64,000 nucleotides of DNA from Aquipluma nitroreducens. Lineage in GTDB: Bacteria; Bacteroidota; Bacteroidia; Bacteroidales; Prolixibacteraceae. The position numbers and the translations under genes were made by a program. Positions 11,029 to 25,919 of this stretch are shown one piece after another (position 1 is the stretch's first letter; each line of letters begins with the position of its first letter). The stretch is from assembly GCF_009689585.1 (NCBI RefSeq), contig NZ_AP018694.1:3549001-3613000 (forward strand). The letters are read 5' to 3'. A model generated the notes under the pieces. The model ran no database searches, was not told where the DNA came from, and saw only the letters and a program-made list of their open reading frames with translations.

Positions 11029-12915
11029 TTATTTTTCAAGTTGCAATACAACGTATGAATGTGGTTTTAATTCCAGGTTCAATACGGTTCTAACCAGCGA
11101 AGGCTTTCTCCATCCCTGAAAATATTCCTTTTTCTCGCCCGTAATTTCCTTGCCCGAAATCAAGTCTTTGGCTTTGGTAAATCCTTCTCCCAACCGAAGT
11201 TTCACTTGACGTGAATCACTTGTAAACGACTCAACGATGACTGTATTGTTGTCGTACACAAATAAACTGGTGTATCCGGGAGCTTCAAGCAGGGCAGGCA
11301 TGGCAGGTGTCAGTATCTCTTTTATTTTAGAAAGAATATCAACAGGCATATGATAAAGGTCTATCACATTATCCGGAATGGTAAGAACATAAAATTTCCC
11401 CTTGCTGTAATCACCCCGGTGTAAAATTGGCCAGCCATTGGTGCCATTAAATGCCGAAACAATTTCCCATGAGTCGTTGGTAATGTATTTAATTTGCGGA
11501 ATAATCATTTCACGATCTGAAAAAGAATGTGGCCCCCATCCGGCAGCAAATTCTTTGACGGAGGCTTTCGTGTCAGTCATTCTTAGTTCGACAATATCAC
11601 TCAGCCCTTTGTCCTGCATGGCTTTCAGGAATCCAGAAGTAACCATGATGTCTTTTCCTGAAATCAATTGTTTCTTGATTTTCGAAACAATATCTGCATC
11701 GAATTTGGCCTGTTCTGTCAGGAATACAATCGGTTCATTTTCCGGAAATTCCGGAACGATATCCATTGGAACACCAATCATTCCCATGTAATTCGGCAAA
11801 AAATCTTCTCCAACCGAATGGAATGGCTTGTAGGTTTTCACACCCACCGGATTTCCAAGTTGTCCCAGAAATTTGTCAATGGTTTCGAACGTATAACCTG
11901 CAGCTCTGGCAATGGTTGTTGGCAAAACCATCTTCCCGTTTTTATCGGCAATTGGCTTCATCATTTCATCGTAATTGAAACTGGTAGTTTCGTGGTTTTG
12001 CCAGTCTGCACGGTCGGTTTTTTGAATAGGACGCTGCAATTGCCTGTAATCGAAAAGTGTAATTTCCGGAGCTTTGGCAAACAGGGTCAGCCACAACTGT
12101 TCAGCATAGCGGTCCATAAAATACATACCACCGGGATCGACCCAGCCACCGCCGTTTTTCCCCGGCTTGAGGTTATTGAAGTACCTGAAAACTTCGTACC
12201 CCAAATAGGGCTGTAAGTGCTGGTTGCTCGATGGATCGCGGGTTTCGGTACCCGTGTAAATTCCATCAAACATTTTCGGTTCTGTTTCCAGATTGAATCC
12301 ACATCCCTGGAAATGATCGTACCAGTTCGGGTATTTAACAACCACTTTAATGTTGGGATTCACTGCTTTTGCCGGATCGATAATCAGTTCTTTGGCCGCT
12401 TTAGTCATTAGATCAAGCCGAAAGTCAGTCCAGCTTTTTGTTCCTTTCGCCTTCACGCACAGATCGCATTTGCAGTTGGTAAAGAAGAAATCGTCGAGAA
12501 TCAATTCGTTAAAATGGCGGGCAGTAAACTCGACAATTTCCTTGATTTTTTTACGATGTTCGGGATTACTATAGCAGAAGGTTTGGAAGTTATTGCTTTC
12601 GTCAACGGTTAGCGTTATTCCACCAGCAGTTTCGATTCCGCAGCTCTCGAAAAAAGCTTTAGCCTTCATCAGGGTTGCTTCATCAACAACTAGCAAATCA
12701 CGGTGTGTCTCCAGATAAATTTTGTCGACTTTTAATTGTTGCGATATTTCATTCCAGGTGAGCTCCAGTGAGTTGATGTCGCCCATCTTTGCCGTTTCAT
12801 AAGCACGGGAATAGACCGCAACTTTGAAATTTCTATAGTGGTCACCAGCCAATAGTGGACTTAAAGATGACAAAAACACGACGATAATAAGATACAGGTT
12901 TTTTATTGGTTTCAT
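11029..12915 (-). CDS. Secreted protein of unknown function, glycoside hydrolase-like barrel
   Basis: The start at 12915 gives MKPIKNLYLIIVVFLSSL, a normal Sec signal peptide, and a mature protein of about 600 residues. The N-terminal 300 residues have alternating beta/alpha character, with a segment LILDDFFFTNCKCDLC that could carry acidic catalytic residues and a Cys cluster (C-x-C-x2-C). A later segment (EFPENEPIVFLTEQ and SGKDIMVTSGF) resembles a glutamine-amidotransferase-like fold, as found after TIM barrels in several glycoside hydrolase families. I do not recognise the exact family. It lies upstream of no SusCD pair, but the GH9 gene on the same strand suggests polysaccharide use. Confidence 0.6.
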   Translation of the reverse strand: MKPIKNLYLIIVVFLSSLSPLLAGDHYRNFKVAVYSRAYETAKMGDINSLELTWNEISQQLKVDKIYLETHRDLLVVDEATLMKAKAFFESCGIETAGGITLTVDESNNFQTFCYSNPEHRKKIKEIVEFTARHFNELILDDFFFTNCKCDLCVKAKGTKSWTDFRLDLMTKAAKELIIDPAKAVNPNIKVVVKYPNWYDHFQGCGFNLETEPKMFDGIYTGTETRDPSSNQHLQPYLGYEVFRYFNNLKPGKNGGGWVDPGGMYFMDRYAEQLWLTLFAKAPEITLFDYRQLQRPIQKTDRADWQNHETTSFNYDEMMKPIADKNGKMVLPTTIARAAGYTFETIDKFLGQLGNPVGVKTYKPFHSVGEDFLPNYMGMIGVPMDIVPEFPENEPIVFLTEQAKFDADIVSKIKKQLISGKDIMVTSGFLKAMQDKGLSDIVELRMTDTKASVKEFAAGWGPHSFSDREMIIPQIKYITNDSWEIVSAFNGTNGWPILHRGDYSKGKFYVLTIPDNVIDLYHMPVDILSKIKEILTPAMPALLEAPGYTSLFVYDNNTVIVESFTSDSRQVKLRLGEGFTKAKDLISGKEITGEKKEYFQGWRKPSLVRTVLNLELKPHSYVVLQLEK

Positions 12916-13069
12916 AGGTTTTAGGTTTTTGTAACTCCTCATTTCCTCGGTTGAAGAAAATGAGGAAGTAATATTTATTGGTTAATCCATAAGTTTAAAT
13001 TGGTGTAATTGGTTTGATTCTATATGATTATAGTCCTATTCAGTTGAGTCAGTGTTGAGAGTTTAACTG

Positions 13070-14707
13070 CTATTTTCCGACAAAACCGGCCAGTGCATAT
13101 ACCAGCGCACCTTGCCAGTTGATGGCAATTTCATTGGTCGAATAGTCTTCCTGTACATCCTTCCAGCCTTTAGCCGAATGGCCACCTCCAACAATATAAC
13201 CAGGCCAGGGCTGGATTTCATTATCCGAACCAGAGCGCCTGTCGTGTGGGTTCATTGGCGGATTGATCCCGAGCCCGGTTACAAACGAACGATTGTAATA
13301 ATTACGCCCGAAGATGTGCGAAATAGCGTCCTGAGAAGTTTGAGTGTAAATTTTCTTAGGTGAGATTTTATGCGCCACCTGAAGGTTTAAAACCTGACGG
13401 GCAATAGTTCCGTTACATCCCCAGTAATATCGGCTTAATGGCCTTCCGTACACGTCAGATGAAGCATTAAATGCAATTTGATTAGCCACGTCAATGATGT
13501 TTTTTTTGATGATTTTCAGAATCTCCGGATTTTTCCCGGCTTTTGCTGAAAGGGCGTATTCGAACATTCCCAGATTTGACACATCGCCCCAATCCCAATC
13601 TTCATCAATTTTGAAGTTTTCAGATGACGCTCGTCTCTCAAAGTCCTTTAAATATTCAGCATTTCCTGTTGTTTCCCACATTTCGGCAGCAGCCCAAAGC
13701 CGGTCGTCTTTATCCTCAGTTTGGTATCCACCAGTTTGAAACTCACCCTGAACAAATACTTTATCCTCTGGATTTTCTTTCAGAAACTTGTAGCTTAATG
13801 TCGCGGCATCCAAACATTTTTGAGAATAAGCTTTGTCGTAGGGTTCGAAATACCGGGAAGCCTGAGCCATCATGGCCACAAAATCGGCCACTGCGGCTGA
13901 ACTCCAATCGGTAAAATATCTTTTTTCTTTGTCTTCTTCAGGTTTGCAGAACGGTTCGAAATTTTTCCGTGTCAGTTTATGCGATACTTTTCCTGAACCA
14001 TCGGTGTATTGCATGGTCAATAACCAGTCGGTTTCCCATTTCAATTCTTTCAGAAAGTCAGGAAATTCGGGAGCAGTTTCGGGTAGATCAAGTGAAAATT
14101 TCTTTAGGTTATTTTGAAACTGGTCCCAGGCCATAAACATCATGCCAACGGTTATGCCAGCATTTACAACATATTTGCCATAGTCGCCGGCATCGTGCCA
14201 GCCACCAGTTCCATTGCGGCGTTGGTCGGGTTTCCCCTGAAAATCTTCATATCCATCATCCAAATGACAGGGCAAGTGAGAAAAGAGATGTCCATCATGG
14301 TTTCCTTCAACTGCAGTACCACATCGCCACAGATAAAAACCCCGCATACTGGTATAGAATGCCTGATTGTACACGTTGGGAGAGATCTCGAAAACTACTG
14401 ATTTAGTGCCTTCCGGAGTTTCAAGGTAATACTTTCCATTTTTCGAGAATGAAGAAAAGTCAGCAAGTCCAACATTTTGGTTTACATCTTTCTGAAAAAC
14501 AGGAGTTGAAACTTTTCCTTGAAAGACCACAGTCTGGCTATCGGCTTGCTTAATTACAAACGATTTAGTTTCTCCAATTATGGATGCTTTTTTTGATGCT
14601 TGTGGCAAAAATCCTAGTGAATTCAGGCAAATATTCTGGTTTTGAGATAAAACAGAAGTGCTGAAAAGAACCAGAAGTACAAAAATGAACGATGCAATTG
14701 TTCTCAT
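13070..14707 (-). CDS. Secreted GH9 endoglucanase
   Basis: The 545-residue protein has a Sec signal peptide (MRTIASFIFVLLVLFSTSVL), an N-terminal Ig-like CelD_N domain to about residue 105, and a GH9 (alpha/alpha)6 catalytic domain. The catalytic Asp pair is in GGWHDAGDYGKY (Asp172 and Asp175). The substrate His is His488 in MNPHDRRSG, and the acid Glu526 lies in DYSTNEIAINW. All GH9 residues expected for an inverting beta-1,4-glucanase are present. It probably acts on cellulose or mixed-linkage glucans in the periplasm or outside. No dockerin or secretion-system C-terminal domain is visible. The unknown secreted gene follows on the same strand after about 150 bases and may be cotranscribed. 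Confidence 0.93.
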   Translation of the reverse strand: MRTIASFIFVLLVLFSTSVLSQNQNICLNSLGFLPQASKKASIIGETKSFVIKQADSQTVVFQGKVSTPVFQKDVNQNVGLADFSSFSKNGKYYLETPEGTKSVVFEISPNVYNQAFYTSMRGFYLWRCGTAVEGNHDGHLFSHLPCHLDDGYEDFQGKPDQRRNGTGGWHDAGDYGKYVVNAGITVGMMFMAWDQFQNNLKKFSLDLPETAPEFPDFLKELKWETDWLLTMQYTDGSGKVSHKLTRKNFEPFCKPEEDKEKRYFTDWSSAAVADFVAMMAQASRYFEPYDKAYSQKCLDAATLSYKFLKENPEDKVFVQGEFQTGGYQTEDKDDRLWAAAEMWETTGNAEYLKDFERRASSENFKIDEDWDWGDVSNLGMFEYALSAKAGKNPEILKIIKKNIIDVANQIAFNASSDVYGRPLSRYYWGCNGTIARQVLNLQVAHKISPKKIYTQTSQDAISHIFGRNYYNRSFVTGLGINPPMNPHDRRSGSDNEIQPWPGYIVGGGHSAKGWKDVQEDYSTNEIAINWQGALVYALAGFVGK

Positions 14708-14963: not shown

Positions 14964-16148
14964 TTACACCAACTCAACGGTAACCTTTTTAAAAAATCGT
15001 GCCTCAAGCAATCTCACTATTCGTTTTACAACGAATTTACGAATTTCAAGTTCAATGGGTTGATCTGGATCCTGATGTGCCCAGTTGATGCGGGTTCCCA
15101 CAATGATGTGAATGATGTCGTGTTGGGTAAGTAGTTTCACCACTTCTTCCGGAGGGCTGTCGCCCAGACGCATGTCGCTGTTGTAATTCTCCAGAATTTC
15201 TTCAACTCTCCCCAATGTCAAAATTCCTTCAGTCACGATTTCAAAGCCTTCCATCTTAGCCGCCGGGGGTAACGATTTTTCGGAGAAACGATGCTGTATG
15301 TTGATGTCAATATTCAGCTCACGCGCAATGATCTCGGCTGTTGTACCCCCACAAATAATTTTCTTTCCCGGGAAATCTTTGATCCGTTTAACAAAGTCGA
15401 CATCTTTTATTTTGTAGAATGGCGGACCTGTGATGAGCATAAATTCGCGGGGTTGCCTGAAATAAATAACTCCACAACTCGCATCGTCGCGAATTTCAAA
15501 CGAATCGTTCATGGAGGCCTGGTTTAAAATTTTTCGGGAAAGTTTGGTGGCCGAAATTTCGTAGTCCCGGGCAATTTGATTTTCTGCAAATCGGACAATG
15601 TCGTTAAGTCCCCATCCTGTTGGAAATCTGGAGCTTCCCAGTCCTGACTGGGTGATGCCATCAGTCATGAAAATAATCCGGTCTTCAAGCAAAGGAGTAA
15701 ATTCCCTGATCCTCAAAATTTTTCCTGCGTTTTCGTCACCTCTGATCGGAATTTCAATTTCTTTTGGGTTAAACATTTGTCCTTTTCTGAAAAGGATTGA
15801 GCGGGGATTGTCATAATTAATAATGCGAACCATCCCGGTGTCTTCAATTTCAATGATTGTAAAAGTGGCATAGCTCTCCTTGCCGTCGATACTTTTAGGT
15901 AAAGCGCGCATGAAAATATTAGCAGCAACTTCGGGCTTGGTGTGGAACGAAGCGTAATTTAAAGCCATTGATGCTGTTAGCGTTGCCAGTACATTTGCTT
16001 TTACTCCATGACCAATTCCATCGGAAAGTACCAGAATGGAGCGACCTTCAGCCCTGATTTGTTTCGAATGAAAAACATCTCCGCAAACAACCTGTCCGTG
16101 CCTGTTTAGTTGATGCAAATCGACTTCTATATGATAGTCATCACTCAT
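14964..16148 (-). CDS. SpoIIE-family PP2C-type protein phosphatase with extra C-terminal domain
   Basis: Starting at the ATG at 16148 (MSDDYHIEV), the 394-residue protein overlaps the end of the PAS gene by 8 bases, a sign of coupled translation. The SpoIIE/PP2C metal motifs are visible as VLSDGIGHGVKA, IIFMTDGITQSGLG and EIRDDASCGVIYF. The last 160 residues (from about PREFMLITGPP) form a separate domain that I do not recognise. Such phosphatases normally dephosphorylate anti-sigma antagonist-type partners in partner-switching pathways. With the PAS gene it forms a two-gene unit facing a hydrogenase operon that encodes two HATPase proteins, so a phosphorylation switch responding to redox or H2 is plausible. 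Confidence 0.88.
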   Translation of the reverse strand: MSDDYHIEVDLHQLNRHGQVVCGDVFHSKQIRAEGRSILVLSDGIGHGVKANVLATLTASMALNYASFHTKPEVAANIFMRALPKSIDGKESYATFTIIEIEDTGMVRIINYDNPRSILFRKGQMFNPKEIEIPIRGDENAGKILRIREFTPLLEDRIIFMTDGITQSGLGSSRFPTGWGLNDIVRFAENQIARDYEISATKLSRKILNQASMNDSFEIRDDASCGVIYFRQPREFMLITGPPFYKIKDVDFVKRIKDFPGKKIICGGTTAEIIARELNIDINIQHRFSEKSLPPAAKMEGFEIVTEGILTLGRVEEILENYNSDMRLGDSPPEEVVKLLTQHDIIHIIVGTRINWAHQDPDQPIELEIRKFVVKRIVRLLEARFFKKVTVELV

Positions 16149-17067
16149 CCTCGCCGTATTTGTACGATTCAATAATAGAATACAGAAGTTCCTCGGTCAT
16201 TGAGGCATTGTCGCCAAGGAGAAAGGCTATTTTTTGCACAGTTTCGAGGTTGTGCCGGTTTACCCGTTGTGCACGGCTGATAATCTCTTCGCGAACCAAT
16301 GAAGGGGCTGACATGTCGCGCAATAAGGCGCCAACTACCCGGTGTTTGTATATGGTAATCACCGAAATGTGCAACAATTTGTTCTGAATCTTCATGTCCC
16401 GATCGATCGCATTTTCTCCTGAAATCATTGTCGCTGTGAACATTTTGTAAATCACATCAGGAACCAGTTCTTTCAGATCGGCGCCATGAAGACCAGGAAT
16501 CGTTTCGTACAACTCTTCAATTTCAGGCCCGAAAAGCTTCGCAAATGCTTCATTCGAGTCGATGACTTTAAAATCACTGTCGACAATAATGAGACCTGCC
16601 CTGATTTTGTGCATCATAGCCGAGGCAATTACAGTTGCTTCACGTGCTTTTTCGAGTTTTCGTTCTGCTTTTTTTCGTTCGGTGATGTCGAAAACTGAAC
16701 CGACAATACCGATTACTTCTCCCTTATTGTCGCGGATTACCGCTTTATTGAAGACCACATCGCGCAATAATCCGGTTGCATCCCTAAATTTCGCCTCATA
16801 ACTTTGGTCGCCCGGACTGTCGAGTAATTCCTGATCGCGTTTGGCATAGATTTCAGCAATTTCGAAAGGTTGAATGTCGAAAACTGTTTTTCCAATGATC
16901 TGCGATTTTGGCAGGCCAAGCAATTTTTCCTGAGCCACATTACATGCTTTATAAATGCCTTTCAGGTCGCGGTAAAAAATGGGAATGGGCAACGCGTCAA
17001 TAATTTTCTGGTGCAATTCAGGGTCGTCAATGAAATCCTGGTTGAAAGAATTTTGTTCGTAAATCAT
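16141..17067 (-). CDS. Two-PAS-domain sensor protein without an output kinase
   Basis: The 308-residue protein contains one PAS domain with a PAC tail (about residues 20-135, ending DITERKKAERKLEKARE), a short coiled-coil linker, and a second PAS (about 150-260). After that there is only a short helical tail (ISRAQRVNRHNLETVQKIAF); no kinase, cyclase or DNA-binding output is present. It is translationally coupled to the downstream SpoIIE phosphatase. In clostridial and Thermotoga sensory hydrogenases, PAS and phosphatase or kinase domains are fused to, or encoded beside, a HydS-type hydrogenase. Here they are separate genes divergent from the hydrogenase operon. It is probably cytoplasmic. 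Confidence 0.85.
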   Translation of the reverse strand: MIYEQNSFNQDFIDDPELHQKIIDALPIPIFYRDLKGIYKACNVAQEKLLGLPKSQIIGKTVFDIQPFEIAEIYAKRDQELLDSPGDQSYEAKFRDATGLLRDVVFNKAVIRDNKGEVIGIVGSVFDITERKKAERKLEKAREATVIASAMMHKIRAGLIIVDSDFKVIDSNEAFAKLFGPEIEELYETIPGLHGADLKELVPDVIYKMFTATMISGENAIDRDMKIQNKLLHISVITIYKHRVVGALLRDMSAPSLVREEIISRAQRVNRHNLETVQKIAFLLGDNASMTEELLYSIIESYKYGEDE

Positions 17068-17262
17068 GGTGTGTGAATTTCGAACTTAATTTACGAAACA
17101 TTTGGGAATATTTAGGACTAGATTCGATCTCTTTTTTGAATGACGATACCTCAAAAGAAATACTTAACTGTAACCAATCTAAATAAGGATCGAAGGGCAT
17201 TACAATCATCAGACTTAAGTTATTTTTTCTGAAATTTGCCGCAAATCGTAATACAATTTTAA

Positions 17263-17607
17263 ATGAAGCTTAGAGATATCGCTACAGTTTTAAATGCAAA
17301 GGTAACCTGTGGAGTTGATAAACTGGATGAAGAGATTGGCATGGGTTATAGTTCTGATCTGATGAGCGATGTATTGACCTTGGATACTGATAATTTGATA
17401 CTGATAACCGGGCTGGTAAACCTTCAGTGTATCCGTACTGCCGAAATGGCCGACATTCGTGCCATTGTTTTTGTACGCAATAAGAAAGCTTCAGATCAAA
17501 TGCTTGAACTGGCTTGTGAGAATGGAATGTGTATACTTGAATCGCCTTTTTCTCTATTCAAATCGAGTGGGCTTTTATTCCAGGCCGGATTAAACCCGAT
17601 TTATTGA
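17263..17607 (+). CDS. DRTGG-domain protein, first copy
   Basis: This 114-residue protein resembles the small DRTGG-domain proteins found beside sensory [FeFe]-hydrogenases. The segment GMGYSSDLMSDVLTL corresponds to the glycine- and aspartate-rich DRTGG core, and the tail CENGMCILESPFSLFKSSG is shared in layout with a second copy at 19548-19883. DRTGG domains are often coupled to CBS or phosphotransacetylase modules and are thought to bind ligands; no enzymatic function is known. It opens the long plus-strand operon 195 bases from the divergent PAS gene. Its stop codon lies directly against a repeat element. Confidence 0.8.
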   Translation: MKLRDIATVLNAKVTCGVDKLDEEIGMGYSSDLMSDVLTLDTDNLILITGLVNLQCIRTAEMADIRAIVFVRNKKASDQMLELACENGMCILESPFSLFKSSGLLFQAGLNPIY

Positions 17608-17776
17608 GAAGCCTCCCCTAACCCCTCCGAAGGAGGGGAACTTGGCCAGCAGTAGTGCTTTTAGAAATTGACAAATGACTAATATCGAATAAGGAATAAC
17701 CAATAAGAAATGAGAAAACATTCGAGTACCGGTTTTTTTAGCCCCCTCTTGTGGAGGGGGTTTGGGGGAGGCCTTC
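17608..17776. repeat. 169-base element with GC-rich terminal inverted repeats
   Basis: The left end GAAGCCTCCCCTAACCCCTCC and the right end GGAGGGGGTTTGGGGGAGGC are imperfect inverted repeats. Next to each end is a small perfect hairpin: CCCCTCC-GAA-GGAGGGG at 17622-17638 and CCCCCTC-TTGTG-GAGGGGG at 17742-17760. The centre is AT-rich and has no ORF. It looks like a miniature, non-coding dispersed repeat inserted between the first DRTGG gene and the HATPase gene; similar GC-rich intergenic elements are known in Bacteroidota genomes. Confidence 0.75.
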
Positions 17777-17780
17777 TATC

Positions 17781-18194
17781 TTGAAACTTACTTTTAACAT
17801 ACAGGGAGGAGACTTTACTCATGCAGGGAAACCTTCGAGTGAGGTGAAAAAAGTGCTTAAACAACTGAATGTCGACGGCAAAACTGTGAAAAACATTGTA
17901 ATTGCGTTGTATGAAGCAGAAGTAAATGTGGTAGCCCATGCCTGGAAAGGAACTGTTTTGGCTGAAATTGATGAGAATAAGATTACCATATTTGTTGAAG
18001 ACGATGGTCCCGGAATTCCTGATATTGAATTGGCCATGCAGGCCGGATACTCTACTGCGAGCAAACAGGTCAGAGATATGGGGTTTGGGGCCGGAATGGG
18101 TTTGCCGAATATGAAAAAGAATACGGATGAATTGTTGATCGAATCGGAAGTCGGTAAGGGTACAAAAGTTAAAATGGTTAACTATTTTAAATGA
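17781..18194 (+). CDS. Serine kinase/anti-sigma-type HATPase protein
   Basis: The likely start is a TTG at 17781 (reading MKLTFNIQGGDF), directly after the repeat element; the frame extends upstream only into the repeat. The protein then has about 137 residues. The N-box (YEAEVNVVAHA) and the ATP-lid motifs EDDGPGIPD and GFGAGMGLPNMKK identify a stand-alone GHKL ATPase of the RsbW/SpoIIAB type. With the divergent SpoIIE-type phosphatase it could form the kinase half of a partner switch. It overlaps the next gene by 4 bases (ATGA), so translation is coupled to the HydS-like protein. Confidence 0.85.
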   Translation: MKLTFNIQGGDFTHAGKPSSEVKKVLKQLNVDGKTVKNIVIALYEAEVNVVAHAWKGTVLAEIDENKITIFVEDDGPGIPDIELAMQAGYSTASKQVRDMGFGAGMGLPNMKKNTDELLIESEVGKGTKVKMVNYFK

Positions 18195-19561
18195 TTGGAG
18201 ATTCCAAATATCATTCATTAGATCCTTCCAAATGCATTGGATGCACCCATTGCATGAAATCGTGTCCGACAGAAGCAATACGGGTTGTAAACGGGTTGGC
18301 TGTAATCGACCATGAACGATGTGTTTACTGCGGCCAATGCCATCGAGCTTGCCCTACTCATGCGTTTTACGTTGAACAAGACGATCTGGCCATGATCCGT
18401 TCATTCAAATACCGTGTCATTTTGTTTCCATCCATCATGATTGGACAGTTTCCTGGTAAATATAGTGAAGATCAGATCTATGACGGGTTGAAGAAAGTTG
18501 GCTTCACCCACATTTATGAAGTGGAACAACCCATGCAAGTGATGATTGATTCGATTAATGAAGTTCTTGCCGATAAAGAAACTCCAAAGCCTGCCATATC
18601 GATCTATTGCCCAGCGATTGTTCGCCTCATTCAGGGGCGATATCCTTCACTCACTGAAAATCTGATTCTAAGGAAAGCCCCGCACAATCTTGCTGCTCAT
18701 TTTGCCATTGAACAATTGAGGCTCGAAGGTGCCCTGCGTGAAGAAATTGGCCTTTTTTACGCCACACCTTGCATAGCGAAAATTGCGGCTGTAAAAAGTC
18801 CTGTTGGTGAAAGCGAATCGATTGTGGATGGTATTGTTAACATGAATCAGTTGTATAATGAAGTGATGAAAGTTATTTCTGACCATGAGGTTGATGACCA
18901 TTCTGTTCAACGAAAAAATCTTTCTGCTGAAGGGATAAACTGGAGTCTCACGCGCGGTGAATCCTGCCATTTTGGATCACGAAGCATCGCCATAGACGGT
19001 ATTCATAATGCCGTACGTTTTCTGGAAAGACTCGAAAATGATCAGGTTAAGGGCATCGATTTCATTGAAATGCGGGCTTGCGATCAAAGTTGTGCCGGCG
19101 GAATTTTACTGACAGGCAACCGGTTTATGACCGTTGAAAGGCTTGAGCGCCGTGCTAAGCGTTACCCATCGGCAAAAGAAATACATCAGGAAAACAACCT
19201 GGAAAAGGCTCAGGAGCTGAAGCGAAAATTGATATTGGACCCGATTATGCCAAAGCCTCATTTTGCTTTCGGGAAAGATAGGGTAAAGGCCATGGAAAAG
19301 ATGGATAAGGCGCAGCGCATTGTTTGCTTTCTGCCGGGAATCGATTGCGGTGCTTGCGGAGCGCCCAATTGCCACGCGCTGGCCGAAGATATGGTAAACA
19401 ACAAGGCAAAAATGTCTGACTGCATCTTTCTGCAACAAAAGTGGGTGGATGAAGGTCGGATTCATGCCCGAAAAGCGTTCCTCAACATACAGAAGAAATG
19501 GGGAGCAGATAGATTTAAAGCTGATTGTAACAAAAGAGGACGACGAAATGAAGGTTTCTGA
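18191..19561 (+). CDS. HydS-like putative sensory [FeFe]-hydrogenase
   Basis: The 456-residue protein has two N-terminal [4Fe-4S] ferredoxin motifs (CIGCTHCMKSC at 15-25, CVYCGQCHRAC at 44-54). An H-cluster-type domain follows, then a C-terminal four-cysteine cluster with Cys386, 389, 394 and 411. The four H-cluster cysteines can be aligned: Cys140 in IYCPAI, Cys194 in TPCIAK, and Cys297 and Cys301 in EMRACDQSCAGG. The proton-relay Cys before Cys140 is Tyr139, the L2 Met is Thr192, and the L2 Glu is Ala200. This matches the group C (HydS) idea of a low-activity sensor. Unlike clostridial HydS, no PAS domain is fused; PAS and phosphatase are encoded divergently. Confidence 0.88.
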   Translation: MIGDSKYHSLDPSKCIGCTHCMKSCPTEAIRVVNGLAVIDHERCVYCGQCHRACPTHAFYVEQDDLAMIRSFKYRVILFPSIMIGQFPGKYSEDQIYDGLKKVGFTHIYEVEQPMQVMIDSINEVLADKETPKPAISIYCPAIVRLIQGRYPSLTENLILRKAPHNLAAHFAIEQLRLEGALREEIGLFYATPCIAKIAAVKSPVGESESIVDGIVNMNQLYNEVMKVISDHEVDDHSVQRKNLSAEGINWSLTRGESCHFGSRSIAIDGIHNAVRFLERLENDQVKGIDFIEMRACDQSCAGGILLTGNRFMTVERLERRAKRYPSAKEIHQENNLEKAQELKRKLILDPIMPKPHFAFGKDRVKAMEKMDKAQRIVCFLPGIDCGACGAPNCHALAEDMVNNKAKMSDCIFLQQKWVDEGRIHARKAFLNIQKKWGADRFKADCNKRGRRNEGF

Positions 19562-19883
19562 ACTGGTTGAAAAATTAGGTCTGACTGTTTTTTCAGGCCA
19601 TAAAGGATTGGATCGTGAAATTGCCGGTGGCTATGTTTCTGATTTACTTAGTGATGTTATGGGGAACGCTCGCGAAGGCGAAGTCTGGATTACGCTTCAG
19701 GTTCATCAGAATGTAATGGCCATAGCTTCGTTAAAAGATTTGGCAGCGGTTATTCTGGTTAGTAATCTCGAACCTCACGAGAACACGATTCGCCATTCGA
19801 ACGACGAAAACATCCCGGTTCTGGGAACCAGTTTGTCAACATTCGAAATTGCCGGAAAGCTGTACCAACTTTATAACCAGTAA
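19548..19883 (+). CDS. DRTGG-domain protein, second copy
   Basis: The ATG at 19548 gives a 111-residue protein that overlaps the end of the HydS-like gene by 14 bases. The core GGYVSDLLSDVMGNAREGE matches the DRTGG-type core of the first copy (GMGYSSDLMSDVL), and both end in a segment with a PVLGTSLSTFE or CILESPFSLF pattern. The two copies flank the HATPase and HydS-like genes. They may form a heteromer or act as ligand-binding subunits of the sensory hydrogenase. This is inferred from position only. Confidence 0.8.
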   Translation: MKVSELVEKLGLTVFSGHKGLDREIAGGYVSDLLSDVMGNAREGEVWITLQVHQNVMAIASLKDLAAVILVSNLEPHENTIRHSNDENIPVLGTSLSTFEIAGKLYQLYNQ

Positions 19884-19885
19884 CA

Positions 19886-20626
19886 ATGAAAACATTCAGG
19901 ACCGATCTTCATATCCACACACTGTTATCTCCATGTGGCGATCTGGAAATGAGTCCTGCAAACATTGTCTCGCTGGCTTGTCAACGAGGGCTTGATATTA
20001 TTGGAATAACCGACCACAACACCACCAAGCAATGCGAGCTAGTTTGGAAACTGGCGCAGAAAACGAATCTGACCGTATTTCCGGGATGCGAAATGACTTC
20101 GCGCGAAGAAGTCCATTGTCTGGGCTTGTTCGAAGATTTTGATGCATTGCGCATTTTTCAGGATTTTCTTGATCGGCATCTGACAATAATTCCACACAAT
20201 GCCGAGCTTTTTGGTTATCAGGTTCTGGTTGATGAGAATGAAGATATTCTCGAAAAGTTGGATTATTATTTGGGCGCTTCGCTCGATGTGAGTATTGAAG
20301 AAGTAGAGCAGAAAGTGCACGAACTCTCCGGAATTTTTATTCCGGCACACGTTGATCGGCCTCGGAACAGTCTGTATAGTCAGTTGGGATTTTTTCCTCC
20401 AGAATTAAAGGTTGATGCCCTGCAGATTTCAAAACTCGCTGAAGAAGAGAGCATCCGGGACAAATATAAAATCAGTCAGGATATAACCATTGTGAGGTTT
20501 TCGGATGCACATTTCCCTGCTGATTTCGGGAAAATCTATACGAATTTTGAGATGGAGAATGCCACATTTTCTGAAATCAAAAAAACATTGCATCGTGAAA
20601 ACGGACGAATGGTGAAGATTCCATAA
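19886..20626 (+). CDS. PHP-domain metal-dependent phosphoesterase
   Basis: The 246-residue protein starts 2 bases after the preceding stop codon. The PHP metal-binding motifs are present: DLHIHTLLSPCGD (His8, His10), GITDHN near residue 40, GCEMTS, IPAHVDRP, and FSDAHF close to the C-terminus. PHP proteins are metal-dependent phosphoesterases with substrates from histidinol-phosphate to nucleotides. PHP genes recur in gene clusters with DRTGG and HATPase genes around sensory hydrogenases. Its role here could be hydrolysis of a nucleotide or phospho-signal, but no substrate can be named. Confidence 0.88.
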   Translation: MKTFRTDLHIHTLLSPCGDLEMSPANIVSLACQRGLDIIGITDHNTTKQCELVWKLAQKTNLTVFPGCEMTSREEVHCLGLFEDFDALRIFQDFLDRHLTIIPHNAELFGYQVLVDENEDILEKLDYYLGASLDVSIEEVEQKVHELSGIFIPAHVDRPRNSLYSQLGFFPPELKVDALQISKLAEEESIRDKYKISQDITIVRFSDAHFPADFGKIYTNFEMENATFSEIKKTLHRENGRMVKIP

Positions 20627-20680
20627 GGCGCTTCTTCTGTTTTTTCATTCGATAATTCAGTCCATCAGTAATTCAATCAA

Positions 20681-21229
20681 ATGAAAGACCTTTCCTTACA
20701 TATCCTAGATATTGTGCAGAATTCGATTCGGGCAAAAGCTAAGTTGGTTGGGATTGAAATTACCGAACTTCCGAAAGAAGATCATTTGATAATTACCATT
20801 ACTGACGATGGCTGCGGAATGAACCCTGAACAGCTGCAAATCGCCATCGATCCATTTTACACCTCCCGCACTACGCGAAAAGTTGGCCTTGGGCTGTCTC
20901 TTTTTAAGCAAAATGCTGAGATGACTGGCGGATCATTCAACATCGAATCTGAATTGGGTAAAGGAACAAAAGTCACAGCCGTGTTTGGTCTGAGCCACAT
21001 CGATCGTCCTGTAATGGGTGATTTGGTCGGGACACTGCTACTTTTGATTTGTTCTTCAGGCGGAACAGATTATGTCTTTAAACATCAAACACCTTCAGGA
21101 AAATTTGGTGTGGATACTCGTGAATTGAAGCAAACGCTTGAAAATGTGCCGCTTAACAATCCTGAAGTCCGGTCGTTCCTGAAAGAAATGCTTCAGGAGA
21201 ATTTAGAACAAATTCAAATTACAGAATGA
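20681..21229 (+). CDS. HATPase-domain protein, histidine-kinase-like, second copy
   Basis: This 182-residue protein starts with an N-box (LDIVQNSIRAKAKLV), then has TDDGCGMNPEQL and TRKVGLGLSLFKQNAEMTGG, the G1 and G2 boxes of histidine-kinase-type ATPases. No HisKA or receiver domain is present. After residue 110 there is a short tail (MGDLVGTLLLLICSSGGTDYVF) of unknown function. It belongs to the same signalling set as the other HATPase, DRTGG and PHP genes, and lies just before the structural hydrogenase genes. It may signal hydrogenase status to a transcription factor that is not in the window. Confidence 0.85.
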   Translation: MKDLSLHILDIVQNSIRAKAKLVGIEITELPKEDHLIITITDDGCGMNPEQLQIAIDPFYTSRTTRKVGLGLSLFKQNAEMTGGSFNIESELGKGTKVTAVFGLSHIDRPVMGDLVGTLLLLICSSGGTDYVFKHQTPSGKFGVDTRELKQTLENVPLNNPEVRSFLKEMLQENLEQIQITE

Positions 21230-21317: not shown

Positions 21318-21716
21318 ATGAATAAAATAAAATCTCTTGCCGACTTAAAAAAGCTACAATCTGAAGTTCAATCGAAAATTAAACTAAGAGAAAATGGTGA
21401 TAATCCTGAGAATCTGATCCAAATCAAAGTTTCAATGGCCACCTGCGGCATCGCTTCCGGAGCAAAAGATACGATGAATTATCTGATTGAGGAGCTTGAT
21501 CATCAGGGAATTGATGCCATTATTACTCAAACTGGATGTATGGGCTATTGCTACGCCGAGCCAACCATCATACTTACAATTCCAGGGCAAAATCCCGTTG
21601 TTTATGGTTACGTCAATAAAACCAAGGCACTGGAAATCATAGAAAAACACATCAAGCTCAACGAAATGGTTGACGGAATTATTCCTGTAGCGTATTCAAC
21701 AATCGATAATAAATAA
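21318..21716 (+). CDS. Thioredoxin-like [2Fe-2S] ferredoxin, hydrogenase-associated
   Basis: The 132-residue protein has the four cysteines of a thioredoxin-like [2Fe-2S] domain: Cys in SMATCGIASGAK, and C-x3-C in QTGCMGYCYAEP. The spacing resembles the NuoE C-terminal half and the N-terminal domain of HydB. The first 40 residues are a charged helix. It starts 89 bases after the HATPase gene and ends 10 bases before hydB, so it is probably an electron-transfer subunit of the HydABC complex or an accessory donor. Some HydABCD-type complexes have such a fourth subunit. Confidence 0.85.
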   Translation: MNKIKSLADLKKLQSEVQSKIKLRENGDNPENLIQIKVSMATCGIASGAKDTMNYLIEELDHQGIDAIITQTGCMGYCYAEPTIILTIPGQNPVVYGYVNKTKALEIIEKHIKLNEMVDGIIPVAYSTIDNK

Positions 21717-21726
21717 ACCGACAAAT

Positions 21727-23520
21727 ATGGTCGAATACAACATGCATATCCTTGTGTGCGGGGGTACCGGATGCAAGGCTTCACAAAGCGAACTCATCAA
21801 AGCAAATTTCACCGACAAGCTCAATGAGTACGGATTGGCAGATGAAATTCAAGTGGTATCAACCGGATGTTTTGGGTTTTGCGAAAAAGGACCCATTGTT
21901 AAAATATTGCCCGACAATACGTTCTATACTCAGGTTACTCCTGAAGATGTAGCCGAAATTGTGGACGAACACATCATCAAAGGACGAAAGGTAGAACGGT
22001 TGCTTTTTATAGATCCAGAAACCAAAGAAACAGTTGGCGATTCGAAAGGAATGGAATTTTATAAGAAGCAGATTCGTATTGCACTTCGCAACTGCGGGTT
22101 CATCAATCCTGAAAACATTGAAGAATACATTGGTCGAGATGGTTACGCTGCATTGGGCACCTGCATATCGGAAAAAACTCCGGACGAAGTAATCAAAACT
22201 GTGAAAGATTCCGGGCTTCGGGGACGTGGCGGTGGTGGCTTTCCAACTGGCTTGAAATGGGAATTGACTCGCAAATCGGTTAGTGACCAGAAATACGTAG
22301 TTTGCAATGCCGACGAAGGCGATCCCGGTGCTTTTATGGACCGTTCGATCCTGGAAGGCGACCCGCATTCGGTGCTCGAAGCGATGGCTATTTGCGGATA
22401 TTGCATTGGTGCCGACAAAGGGCTGGTGTACATTCGTGCTGAATACCCATTGGCCATCGAGCGCCTGAAAATTGCCATCGACCAGGCTCGCGAATATGGT
22501 TTACTTGGTGACGATATTTTGGGAACCGGATTTAATTTTGATGTTGAAATCCGCTACGGAGCCGGAGCTTTCGTGTGTGGCGAAGAAACTGCACTGATCC
22601 ATTCGATGGAAGGGAAACGCGGTGAACCAACTGTAAAACCTCCGTTTCCGGCTGAGAAAGGATACAACGGCAAACCTACCAATGTAAACAATGTGGAAAC
22701 TTTTGCCAACATTCCGGTCATTATTAATAAAGGTGCAGAATGGTTCGCTTCCATTGGAACGGAAAAATCGAAGGGAACCAAAGTGTTTGCTTTAGCCGGG
22801 AAAATCAACAATGTAGGTTTAATTGAAGTTCCGATGGGAATTACCCTTCGCGAAATTATATATGATATTGGTGGCGGAATCAAGGATGGACGCGAATTTA
22901 AAGCAGTTCAGACTGGTGGTCCTTCCGGAGGTTGTTTGACTAAATCGTTTTTGGATACGCCAATCGATTACGATAATTTGGTTGCTGCCGGCTCCATGAT
23001 GGGTTCAGGAGGTATGATTGTGCTCGACGATTCGGATTGCATGGTAGCCATTGCCAAGTTTTACCTCGAATTTACACTCGACGAATCGTGCGGGAAGTGT
23101 ACCCCGTGTCGGATTGGGAATAAGCGCTTGCACGAAATTCTGGAAAAGATAACCAATGGAAACGGTGAGCTTGAAGACCTGAATCGATTAAGAATGCTGA
23201 GTAACGTGATCAAAGATACATCGCTTTGCGGCTTGGGACAAACATCTCCAAATCCGGTACTTTCAACACTCGATAATTTCTACGACGAGTATCTGGCACA
23301 CGTAACTACACATAAATGTTTGGCCGGTCAGTGTAAGGCATTGATGCACTATTCGATTGATGCCGAGCGGTGTACCGGATGTACGCTTTGTTTCAGAAAT
23401 TGCCCGGTTGGTGCTATTTCCGGCGAAAAACGTTCGCCACATTACATCGACCAGTCGATTTGCATTAAATGCGGTGTGTGTATCGGGAAATGTAAGTTTG
23501 ATGCTGTATTAATCGCCTAA
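21727..23520 (+). CDS. hydB: NAD(H)-dependent bifurcating [FeFe]-hydrogenase, flavoprotein subunit HydB
   Basis: The 597-residue protein is a NuoF-like subunit. It has an N-terminal [2Fe-2S] thioredoxin-like domain (LVCGGTGCKAS, STGCFGFC), the FMN/NADH-binding core (GLRGRGGGGFPTGLKWE and CGEETALIHSMEGKRGEP), an SLBB region, and the NuoF [4Fe-4S] motif CGKCTPCRIG. At the C-terminus two extra [4Fe-4S] motifs (CTGCTLCFRNC and CIKCGVCIGKC) are fused, the hallmark of electron-bifurcating HydB. It exchanges electrons with NAD(H) and the iron-sulfur chain of HydA in the cytoplasm. It is followed after 11 bases by hydA. Confidence 0.94.
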   Translation: MVEYNMHILVCGGTGCKASQSELIKANFTDKLNEYGLADEIQVVSTGCFGFCEKGPIVKILPDNTFYTQVTPEDVAEIVDEHIIKGRKVERLLFIDPETKETVGDSKGMEFYKKQIRIALRNCGFINPENIEEYIGRDGYAALGTCISEKTPDEVIKTVKDSGLRGRGGGGFPTGLKWELTRKSVSDQKYVVCNADEGDPGAFMDRSILEGDPHSVLEAMAICGYCIGADKGLVYIRAEYPLAIERLKIAIDQAREYGLLGDDILGTGFNFDVEIRYGAGAFVCGEETALIHSMEGKRGEPTVKPPFPAEKGYNGKPTNVNNVETFANIPVIINKGAEWFASIGTEKSKGTKVFALAGKINNVGLIEVPMGITLREIIYDIGGGIKDGREFKAVQTGGPSGGCLTKSFLDTPIDYDNLVAAGSMMGSGGMIVLDDSDCMVAIAKFYLEFTLDESCGKCTPCRIGNKRLHEILEKITNGNGELEDLNRLRMLSNVIKDTSLCGLGQTSPNPVLSTLDNFYDEYLAHVTTHKCLAGQCKALMHYSIDAERCTGCTLCFRNCPVGAISGEKRSPHYIDQSICIKCGVCIGKCKFDAVLIA

Positions 23521-23531
23521 AAGTATTTTCT

Positions 23532-25283
23532 ATGGAAATGATAAACCTCACAATAGATCATAAACCGGTAGTTGTCAGCAAAGGAACTACCATACTGAAA
23601 GCCGCTTCCAGTATCGGAATTGATATTCCGACGTTATGCTACATGAAGCTCGACGATATGAACATTGAAAATAAACCGGGAGGTTGCCGTGTTTGCGTAG
23701 TCGAAGTTAAAGGTCGCCGGAATCTGGCTCCTGCCTGTTGCACCGAAGCCACCGAAGGAATGGAAATAAATACGCATTCGATACGGGCTATCAATGCGCG
23801 TCGAACGATTGTCGAATTAATTTTATCTGATCATCCGGCCGACTGTTTGATTTGTGCCAAATCGGGCAATTGCGATTTGCAAAATATGGCGCACCATCTT
23901 GGAATCCGAAAAATTCATTACCAGGGCGAACAGTCATTGTACCGCGAGGATACTTCGCCGGCGATTATCCGCGAAATTAACAAGTGTATCATGTGCCGCC
24001 GATGCGAAACCATGTGCAACGAGGTGCAGACTGTCGGCGTTCTTTCGGCTGTTAATCGCGGATTTCAGGCTGTCGTGGCTCCGGCATTTGAGATGAATCT
24101 CGACCATTCTACGTGTACTTATTGTGGTCAGTGTGTTGCTGTATGTCCAACTGGCGCGCTTACTGAAGCAGATGAAACCGGCGCTGTAATTCGGGCTTTG
24201 TCCGATCCGACTAAAACGGTAGTGGTTCAGACAGCCCCTGCGGTTCGTGCTGCATTGGGCGAAGAATTCGGAATGCCTGCCGGAACTTTGGTGACTGGCA
24301 AAATGGTTGCGGCCTTGCGCCGTTTGGGGTTCGATTATGTTTTCGATACCGATTTTGCTGCCGACCTTACCATCATGGAAGAAGGAACCGAATTATTGAG
24401 CCGTTTGTCTGCATTCATGGAAGGTGATAAAAATGTGAAACTGCCAATCCTTACCTCGTGTTGTCCTGCATGGGTAAAATTCTTTGAACATCATTTTCCT
24501 GAATTGAAAGATATTCCTTCAACGGCACGCTCACCCCAGCAAATGTTTGGTTCTGTTGCCAAAACCTATTTTGCCGATAAAATTGGAGTGAAACGTGAAA
24601 ATTTGGTGGTAGTTTCCATTATGCCTTGTTTGGCTAAGAAGTATGAAAGCAGTCGCCCCGAGTTTTCGGTTAATGGCAATCCTGATGTTGACTTTGCTTT
24701 AAGTACCCGCGAACTTGGTCATTTGATCAATTTGGGGAACATCGATTTTAACTCGTTACCGAATGAAGAATTTGATCAGCCTTTAGGTGAATCAACCGGC
24801 GCTGCCGTAATCTTTGGAACAACTGGTGGAGTGATAGAAGCTGCGGTGCGCACCGCCTACGAAATATTTACTGGCAACCCTTTGCCGCGAGTTGATTTTG
24901 AAGAGTTGCGCGGAATGGATGGTTTACGTAAAGCAACGATCGACTTCAACGGAACAGAGATCAACATCGGGATCGCTCATGGGTTGGGCAATGCGCGCAA
25001 GTTGCTCGAAGATATTCAGGCCGGAAACAGTGAATTTCATGCTATCGAAATCATGTCGTGCCCGGGTGGTTGCATTGGAGGTGGTGGTCAGCCGTATCAC
25101 CACGGTGATGCCGAAATACTAAAAAAGCGCCAACGCGCAATTTATTCTGAAGACAAAAACAAGAACATCAGAAAGTCGCACGAGAATCCATACATCACCA
25201 AGCTTTACGAGGAATTTTTGGGCGCGCCGATGAGCGAAAAAGCGCATCATCTGTTGCATACCAAATATTTTGATCGCAGCTAG
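23532..25283 (+). CDS. hydA: [FeFe]-hydrogenase catalytic subunit HydA
   Basis: The 583-residue protein has an N-terminal [2Fe-2S] domain, a His-Cys [4Fe-4S] motif (HPADCLICAKSGNCDLQ), two ferredoxin-type clusters (CIMCRRCETMC, CTYCGQCVAVC), then a complete H-domain. L1 is TSCCPAW (Thr308 to Cys311), L2 is MPCLAKKYE (Met364), and L3 is EIMSCPGGCIGGGGQP (Glu506, Cys510, Cys514), followed by the small subunit-like tail. All catalytic residues, including the proton-relay Cys310, are present. With HydB and HydC it should form a bifurcating or NAD-linked hydrogenase that couples ferredoxin and NAD(H) to H2. Confidence 0.96.
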   Translation: MEMINLTIDHKPVVVSKGTTILKAASSIGIDIPTLCYMKLDDMNIENKPGGCRVCVVEVKGRRNLAPACCTEATEGMEINTHSIRAINARRTIVELILSDHPADCLICAKSGNCDLQNMAHHLGIRKIHYQGEQSLYREDTSPAIIREINKCIMCRRCETMCNEVQTVGVLSAVNRGFQAVVAPAFEMNLDHSTCTYCGQCVAVCPTGALTEADETGAVIRALSDPTKTVVVQTAPAVRAALGEEFGMPAGTLVTGKMVAALRRLGFDYVFDTDFAADLTIMEEGTELLSRLSAFMEGDKNVKLPILTSCCPAWVKFFEHHFPELKDIPSTARSPQQMFGSVAKTYFADKIGVKRENLVVVSIMPCLAKKYESSRPEFSVNGNPDVDFALSTRELGHLINLGNIDFNSLPNEEFDQPLGESTGAAVIFGTTGGVIEAAVRTAYEIFTGNPLPRVDFEELRGMDGLRKATIDFNGTEINIGIAHGLGNARKLLEDIQAGNSEFHAIEIMSCPGGCIGGGGQPYHHGDAEILKKRQRAIYSEDKNKNIRKSHENPYITKLYEEFLGAPMSEKAHHLLHTKYFDRS

Positions 25284-25400: not shown

Positions 25401-25919
25401 ATGCCAGGAATAAAACTTTCAGAAAAAACCATTGGGCTGATCAGGGAGATCTGCTCGGATTTCGGGAATCAGGGAAGTGAATTGATTAATGTATTGCATC
25501 AGGTTCAGGGTAAGTTAGGCTATTTACCAGCTGAAGTACAGGAAGTAATTGCCAAAGAATTAAATATTTCGGTGGCCAAAGTTTACGGAGTGGTTACTTT
25601 CTACTCTTTCTTTACCATGATTCCGATGGGTGAGCACCCGATTTCTATTTGTATGGGGACGGCTTGCTATGTGCGTGGATCAGAGCAAGTTCTTGCAGAA
25701 TTTAAGCGACAATTAAGTATTGAAGTGGGGCAAAGTACAGCCGATAATAAATTTTCGCTCAATTGTTTGCGCTGCGTGGGCGCTTGTGGATTGGCTCCTG
25801 TTGTTATGGTTGGCGAAAAAGTATATGGCCGTGTTTCTCCGCAAATGGTAAAAAGCATCATTTCCGAATATAAGGAAGGCTGTGCTTCAGAAGCAAAATC
25901 AGCGTGCTATACGATTTAA
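25401..25919 (+). CDS. hydC: Bifurcating hydrogenase subunit HydC (NuoE-like)
   Basis: This 172-residue protein is a thioredoxin-like [2Fe-2S] subunit of the NuoE family. Cluster ligands are Cys84 and Cys89 (CMGTAC), and Cys125 and Cys129 (CVGAC), the usual C-x4-C and C-x3-C spacing. The N-terminal helical segment (GNQGSELINVLHQVQGKLGYLP) is typical of NuoE. It passes electrons between the HydB flavin and other clusters. It is separated from hydA by a hairpin repeat and ends just before a perfect palindrome, so it is probably the last gene of the operon. Confidence 0.93.
   Translation: MPGIKLSEKTIGLIREICSDFGNQGSELINVLHQVQGKLGYLPAEVQEVIAKELNISVAKVYGVVTFYSFFTMIPMGEHPISICMGTACYVRGSEQVLAEFKRQLSIEVGQSTADNKFSLNCLRCVGACGLAPVVMVGEKVYGRVSPQMVKSIISEYKEGCASEAKSACYTI

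Follow-up and report, generated by a model that had tools for sequence, protein, structure and literature searches.

We examined a signalling locus beside an electron-bifurcating-type [FeFe] hydrogenase of Aquipluma nitroreducens, contained in a window of 64 kb of the 5.7-Mb genome (contig NZ_AP018694.1, positions 3,549,001 to 3,613,000; the window is this whole stretch, and positions without a locus handle refer to it). Two signalling genes with overlapping frames on the minus strand, coding for a phosphatase and a two-PAS protein (PAS2), face a block of six plus-strand genes that runs from DRTGG1 to HATb, beyond which lie the genes of the hydrogenase HydABC. A first-pass annotation of this DNA had placed the locus at 16141-21229, and the genes it named are all present in the claimed order and on the claimed strands (Pfam, NCBIfam), although the phosphatase falls almost entirely outside that span. 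Likewise, the second DRTGG gene exists but most likely starts near 19545 rather than at 19449, because conservation starts at residue 33, and HydB, HydA and HydC do lie downstream of the block but not directly after the last HATPase gene, since a thioredoxin-like gene (21318-21716) intervenes. For neighbours with no Pfam assignment, here and in relatives, the gene names are our own reading of the sequence. The features are as follows:

14964..16172, minus strand: SpoIIE/PP2C-type phosphatase of 402 amino acids (aa), start probably near 16148 (Pfam SpoIIE, 50.5 bits).
16141..17067, minus strand: two-PAS protein, PAS2 (Pfam; alignment with group C HydS open reading frames; tree of the partner phosphatases).
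17078..17097: conserved block upstream of the PAS gene, inverted-repeat-like, TTTCG...CGAA (12-row alignment).
17223..17245: conserved block with TTTGCCGCAAA, upstream of DRTGG1 (12-row alignment).
17263..17607, plus strand: DRTGG1, 114 aa, motifs SDLMSDVL and TGLxNxQxxRT (80/80 loci; conservation; predicted fold).
17751..18194, plus strand: HATa, SpoIIAB-like HATPase and probable Ser/Thr protein kinase, exact start unsure (Pfam HATPase_c_2).
18191..19561, plus strand: HydS, putative sensory hydrogenase of group D type (M2e), with two N-terminal [4Fe-4S] motifs, an H-domain and a C-terminal Cx2Cx4Cx16C motif.
19545..19883, plus strand: DRTGG2, about 112 aa, motif SDLLSDV (Pfam DRTGG, 27.5 bits; 74/80 loci).
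19886..20626, plus strand: PHP-domain protein with conserved putative metal ligands, probable phosphoesterase (Pfam).
20681..21229, plus strand: HATb, histidine-kinase-like ATPase with no further Pfam domain (HATPase_c, 69.7 bits; 67/80 loci).
21318..21716, plus strand: thioredoxin-like [2Fe-2S]-type protein of 132 aa before HydB (Pfam match below cut-off; 56/80 loci).
21727..23520, plus strand: HydB (NuoF family, 487.9 bits, under the family cut-off of 558.65).
23532..25283, plus strand: HydA, NADH-dependent [FeFe] hydrogenase of group A6 (NF040763, 901 bits, cut-off 765).
25401..25919, plus strand: HydC (Pfam 2Fe-2S_thioredx, 167.9 bits).

The comparison of loci drew on the best 80 of at least 584 confirmed relatives, a selection that for this reason leans to close kin; as many contigs are short, its counts are lower bounds of presence. 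These loci showed a constant core. First, DRTGG1, HATa and HydS follow one another in this order on one strand in 80 of the 80 loci, so that the core of the gene order for which the first-pass annotation had proposed to search other genomes does recur, and recurrence on this scale is not chance. Second, the remainder of the block is more variable, with DRTGG2 and PHP each present in 74 loci, HATb in 67 and HydB in 57 (the HydA, HydB and HydC counts include a paralogous cluster in some loci), while the PAS gene and phosphatase accompany it in 21. HydS has two constant partners, one a DRTGG protein and the other a SpoIIAB-like kinase. Third, a screen of 130 loci, some of them sharing a genome, turned up DRTGG1 and HATa as a single polypeptide in two only (L154 and L155), from two genomes. 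The comparison bears out the earlier description to this extent: a putative sensory hydrogenase lies among genes for kinase, DRTGG, PHP, PAS and phosphatase proteins and is linked to HydABC.

HydS was aligned as 99 distinct sequences out of 108 collected. CpI residue numbers were transferred by alignment to HydA on the basis of known motifs. The four H-cluster cysteines are retained in 99/99 sequences, as are the cysteines of the C-terminal Cx2Cx4Cx16C motif (C386, C389, C394 and C411). At the position of C299, the proton-shuttle cysteine, we found F in 86, Y in 12 and R in one; the M353 position is T in 92 and S in seven, the M497 position R or K in 96, and the K358 position K in 96. Five of 58 HydA (group A) sequences were aligned as control rows, and all five have C299, M353 and M497; 14-15 of 16 group C open reading frames (ORFs) keep the four H-cluster cysteines. 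In Pfam, the HydS of the window shows two Fer4 matches and PF04060, corresponding to two N-terminal [4Fe-4S] motifs plus the C-terminal motif, and no PAS domain. The relevant passages of Land et al. give as M2e/group D traits two N-terminal cluster motifs, a C-terminal Cx2Cx4Cx16C, the lack of PAS, the loss of C299 and the change of M353 to Ser/Thr (PMC8163306). Judged by its sequence, HydS has every testable published trait of group D (M2e), and the closest named match among the matches listed is from a Prolixibacteraceae metagenome-assembled genome (97% identity). The first-pass view that the locus keeps as separate genes what is elsewhere one fused protein is hence not supported, as HydS is a PAS-less group D type and the PAS gene and phosphatase form a module that appears to derive from group C3. 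That HydS might be one half split from a fused PAS hydrogenase was rejected on the group D traits and on the match of PAS2 to group C C-termini. With H-cluster ligands kept and no proton-shuttle cysteine, HydS would report a state rather than support fast turnover.

Against Pfam PF07085 (cut-off 25.2 bits), DRTGG2 scores above the threshold at 27.5 bits and DRTGG1 below it at 18.1 bits. The best PDB match of the predicted DRTGG1 model (pLDDT 97) is 2ioj, the solved DRTGG protein AF1212 (E 6e-06, TM 0.86/0.82). Further fold matches are to a pyrophosphatase in its CBS-DRTGG region and, at lower similarity, to HPr kinase, and a profile search with DRTGG1 among PDB sequences had just two hits, both weak (0.037 and 0.039). 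Its conserved motifs are SDLMSDVL and TGL...Q. HATa matches an anti-sigma F factor among PDB sequences (2.7e-08), scores 69.8 bits against NCBIfam TIGR01925 (below the cut-off of 135), and keeps E55, N59, DxGPGI and GFGAGMGLxN in at least 95% of 81 rows; we take the Glu and Asn to be catalytic residues. HATa thus carries the predicted HATPase fold and the catalytic and ATP-lid motifs of SpoIIAB/RsbW kinases, and is a probable Ser/Thr protein kinase. In the PHP protein, H9, H11, D43, H44, E69, H77, H155, D207 and H209 are conserved in at least 95% of 73 rows, and in a search for its substrate nothing came up beyond a partial match to Endonuclease Q.

The PAS-phosphatase module has a different history. 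PAS2 residues about 130-306 align with the C-terminal PAS part in 14 of 16 group C HydS ORFs; residues 1-129, a PAS domain, are not alignable to group C HydS and occupy the place of the hydrogenase domain. Like group C3 proteins, PAS2 has the homologous C-terminal PAS part and an adjoining phosphatase; lacking a hydrogenase domain (Pfam), it falls outside the hydrogenase-PAS fusion that defines group C3. Besides HydS, the genome has three Fe_hyd_lg_C proteins, namely HydA of the window and frames of 592 aa and 496 aa elsewhere, and no phosphatase was found beside either of the latter. Of the 21 loci with PAS and phosphatase, 15 resemble the window in that the gene of the short PAS protein diverges from DRTGG1; the remaining six (L080, L086, L090, L096, L104 and L126) have the phosphatase gene immediately after that of a group C HydS whose C-terminal part is PAS (cut by the contig end in L096). 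In a phosphatase tree of 36 rows, the 22 with a hydrogenase-less PAS partner, 20 from the family of the window and two with no family name, form one clade (100/100). This clade adjoins four rows with full group C HydS (95/80), three of them named Marinilabiliaceae, a nesting that depends on midpoint rooting, which places a single long row (L049) outermost. The alignments and tree point to a group C3 HydS-phosphatase pair as the ancestor of the PAS protein and phosphatase; HydDB, in the portion consulted, names this ancestral type C3, phosphatase-linked (PMC5037454). On the simplest reading, the hydrogenase domain was apparently lost once, with a PAS domain in its place, which suggests that the output enzyme of a hydrogen sensor can be kept after its hydrogenase is lost. 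At L049 (G056:C146) there is a second HydS-PAS-phosphatase pair of group C, a divergent one; the genome carries the group D block and another phosphatase besides.

The phosphatase itself exceeds the Pfam SpoIIE cut-off (50.5 vs 25 bits), keeps D32, D51, D171, D229 and D230 in at least 95% of 22 rows, and has a predicted fold that matches PP2C phosphatases, RsbX included; against the sporulation equivalog TIGR02865 it reaches 25.6 of 490.8 bits. Its C-terminal domain (about 243-402) gave no match in Pfam, in PDB sequences or among the top 50 Foldseek matches. This domain (14964-15446) is highly conserved, with GGTTAEIIAREL, TEGILTL and GTRINWAHQDP.

We then weighed whether the two modules make up one system. 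The first-pass annotation inferred a single partner-switching cascade with the hydrogenase as sensor; spelled out, HydS would signal to the HATPase and the SpoIIE-type phosphatase, these would phosphorylate and dephosphorylate one common antagonist, and a sigma factor freed by it would turn on hydABC. The kinase and phosphatase families are indeed those of partner switching, and the PAS-phosphatase pair stands back to back with the kinase block in the window and in 15/80 loci. We surveyed 198 Bacteroidales genomes, mostly split over many contigs (completeness floor 90%), with E-value cut-offs of 1e-50 for HydS, 1e-80 for the phosphatase and 1e-250 for HydA, which we placed at gaps in the lists of matches. 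Group D HydS is present in 63 genomes, the phosphatase in 69 (plus five weak matches) and HydA A6 in 84; HydA A6 accompanies HydS in 59/63 carriers and the phosphatase in 66/69. Both modules track HydABC. They co-occur strongly over the 198 genomes, with 46 having both. Among the 84 HydABC genomes, however, 45 have both, 14 only the group D module, 21 only the phosphatase and four neither, so that the 45 observed compare with 46.4 expected by independence (p 0.57, a Fisher value that ignores the relatedness of genomes); counting the five weak phosphatases, the table reads 48/11/21/4. We accordingly rejected the joint occurrence in 46/198 genomes as proof of one cascade, as the association vanishes among the HydABC genomes.

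Relatives that lack the block speak against a single cascade too. At three loci, one of a congener (G006) and two of family members (G027 and G032), PAS2, the phosphatase and HydABC stand without any gene of the six-gene block; a genome-wide search, made for HydS alone, did not find it in any of the three (E 1e-20). G010 has HydABC with neither module within the 16 kb covered. G006 most likely lost the block, given that HydS occurs in 18 of 22 other genomes of the genus. As the block is absent as a whole beside a kept phosphatase, it moves as a unit and the phosphatase is independent of it. In Hydrogenedentota, according to the part of the source dealing with them, nearly all group C3 genes adjoin group A3 hydrogenases (PMC11406978), in line with the PAS-phosphatase module following HydABC. 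At L143, L144, L145 and L147 (G027, G032, G043 and G117), all four without the six-gene block, the HydB match lacks the first about 112 residues; other block-less loci (L141, L142 and L149) match HydB in full.

The output partners of such a cascade were also sought. No STAS antagonist was found at the locus, which upholds the first-pass statement that none is obvious in the window, and a dedicated one elsewhere in the genome was rejected, since none of the genome's three STAS matches is linked to the locus: one is a 573-aa frame (presumably transporter-like), one lies by rpsA and rnz, and one, below cut-off, sits in a chemotaxis-like cluster. The genome has two SpoIIE proteins and eleven HATPase_c_2 matches, three of them above cut-off; of these three, two are small RsbW-like frames, that of the window and one beside ybeY and mnmG. 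No cognate sigma factor was found at the locus, to which the search for sigma factors was confined. Thus, with the modules independent among HydABC genomes and block-less relatives at hand, one obligate kinase/phosphatase cascade is unlikely.

A further explanation is that the block acts on the bifurcating complex (its assembly, activation or phosphorylation of HydB/HydC-type diaphorases) and not on transcription, with HydS as the hydrogenase-specific gauge. In L160 (G120), HydA is replaced by a 900-aa protein (L160:5761-8463) that joins the HydA N-terminal part to molybdopterin oxidoreductase domains and is formate-dehydrogenase-like by our reading; group D HydS is gone from between HATa and DRTGG2, and the five genes for HATa, both DRTGG proteins, PHP and HATb are kept. 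L154 and L155 have a divergent triad with the fused DRTGG1-HATa (HydS 27-29% identical to that of the window), which precedes HydC, HydB, a molybdopterin protein and Nfn-like genes, the last label being our own. Further, no Pfam DNA-binding domain was found in the block proteins. These settings suggest that the kit may serve NADH-ferredoxin complexes more widely, and HydS may be its hydrogenase-specific gauge. Against an action on the complex, the triad stands without other block genes or HydABC in the stretch covered at L100, L105, L127, L166 and L156 (the search for block genes being confined to that stretch), G037 has no HydABC, and HydABC persists without the block at the G006, G010, G027 and G032 loci; on balance we find this explanation rather doubtful. 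The first-pass annotation had named scattering of the genes away from hydrogenases as evidence against its own reading, and such scattering was seen in part, as lone triads in several loci and one in a genome without HydABC. The L160:5761-8463 protein, within a HydABC-type operon, is perhaps part of a bifurcating formate dehydrogenase. L157 (G085) has an operon with HydC and HydB, no HydA between them, and both sensor modules.

We favour, by a modest degree of confidence, two separately evolving signalling modules on one electron-bifurcating-type HydABC. In the first, HydS would report H2 or redox state and act on a DRTGG protein bound to the SpoIIAB-like kinase HATa; because no STAS antagonist accompanies the set, DRTGG1 and DRTGG2 are our best guess for adaptors or substrates of the kinase, and PHP and HATb would extend the kit. 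In the second, the PP2C-type phosphatase would be steered by the PAS protein, which, with PAS in place of the hydrogenase domain, should read another (redox or ligand) signal. The output would be control of HydABC amount or activity. What the data establish is gene content, intact motifs, fusions, the history of the domains and co-occurrence; the activities of kinase and phosphatase, the part played by DRTGG, H2 as signal and the output are inferences. More tentatively, the first module could be a STAS-free switch, with DRTGG as a STAS-like antagonist phosphorylated by a hydrogenase-gated SpoIIAB-like kinase, and the phosphatase output could have been rewired from H2 through the hydrogenase-to-PAS exchange.

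HydG bears on whether HydS is loaded with an H-cluster. It was detected in 54/63 group D genomes and 75/84 A6 genomes, and eight of the nine HydG-less group D genomes are also among the nine HydG-less A6 genomes. G037 (99% complete, 140 contigs) has HydG and a single Fe_hyd_lg_C match, HydS; the three genes that stand upstream of HydABC in its congener G230 are shared by G037 but lead there, on one contig, into other genes. Though a single genome, it favours the view that HydS carries a loaded H-cluster and has a role where HydABC is missing. Several observations weigh against the two-module reading. The triad also occurs with no HydABC nearby, and HydABC therefore need not be its target; the L154/L155 and L160 settings imply that signals other than H2 may be read too; 9/63 group D genomes gave no HydG match; two PAS-less group C ORFs of the 16 did not align with PAS2; and in the TamHydS model, as far as the accessible text of that paper goes, the C-terminal cluster is not reduced by H2 (PMC13104023).

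The two intergenic blocks come from an alignment of 12 rows of near relatives, two pairs of which are from the same genome. That at 17078..17097 has one match in the window against 0.39 expected, and 28 of 100 shuffles had at least one; that at 17223..17245 has one match against 0.04 expected. Neither block led to a regulator. The gap of about 140 bases between DRTGG1 and HATa (17608-17750) contains G+C-rich inverted repeats of the CCCCTCC...GGAGGGG type, spotted by eye, and the two genes lie closer together in many relatives. Farther off, a 637-aa protein (11029-12942) with no Pfam match at E 0.001 adjoins a GH9 cellulase gene (13070-14707).

Among the titles listed from the openly licensed literature we found none on the mechanism of this module or on a hydrogenase-less C3 protein. 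The finding of interaction partners of the sensory hydrogenase is termed critical in the text seen of the 2026 TamHydS paper (PMC13104023). DRTGG1 and HATa are the first candidate partners to test for sensory [FeFe] hydrogenase signalling, and the natural DRTGG1-HATa fusion, the deletion lines in the genus and family of the window, and a genome in which HydS is the only hydrogenase-domain protein found and the maturase is kept offer handles on it. One might instead take the locus for an ordinary known operon, a group D sensory hydrogenase kit already in gene lists and with no new mechanism. Halanaerobium hydrogeniformans Halsa_1862-1871 lists the same kinds of genes (PMC4237134), and group D was noted in 2012 near kinases and bifurcating hydrogenases (PMC3561251); the sections of these two sources at hand do not give the DRTGG identity, the triad core, the domain swap or the deletion lineages, and we hold this view to be very improbable. 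New beyond the matching gene list already in print for Halanaerobium are the core triad, the exchange of sensor domains and the natural deletion lines.

Four known systems invite comparison. The Halsa_1862-1871 list shares with our locus an iron hydrogenase, NADH dehydrogenase, ferredoxin-like protein, histidine kinase and NuoE, as well as PHP, an iron-sulfur hydrogenase and an anti-sigma factor/Ser-Thr kinase; it differs in adding an iron-sulfur cluster domain protein and an unidentified ORF, and its portion seen neither names DRTGG, PAS or phosphatase nor discusses function (PMC4237134). TamHydS of Thermoanaerobacter mathranii (group D/M2e), as far as the cited text describes it, is alike in cluster layout, Cx2Cx4Cx16C, missing C299, M353 changed to Ser/Thr, lack of PAS and a gene upstream of a trimeric bifurcating hydrogenase, whereas its M497 position, termed poorly conserved there, is Leu rather than the Arg/Lys found here in 96/99, and its neighbours are an AraC regulator and an HK-like ATPase rather than a DRTGG protein (PMC8163306); we suspect the AraC label to be a misannotated DRTGG. 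The group C3 phosphatase-linked hydrogenase of HydDB, in the part of its description used, has the same C-terminal PAS part and an adjacent PP2C-type phosphatase alignable over its full length, whereas here the hydrogenase domain is absent and a second PAS domain stands in its place (PMC5037454). Finally, SpoIIAB/RsbW and SpoIIE/RsbX partner switching resembles the present locus in protein folds and catalytic motifs, but here no cognate STAS or sigma factor was found with the locus, and the kinase and phosphatase modules are not obligate partners.

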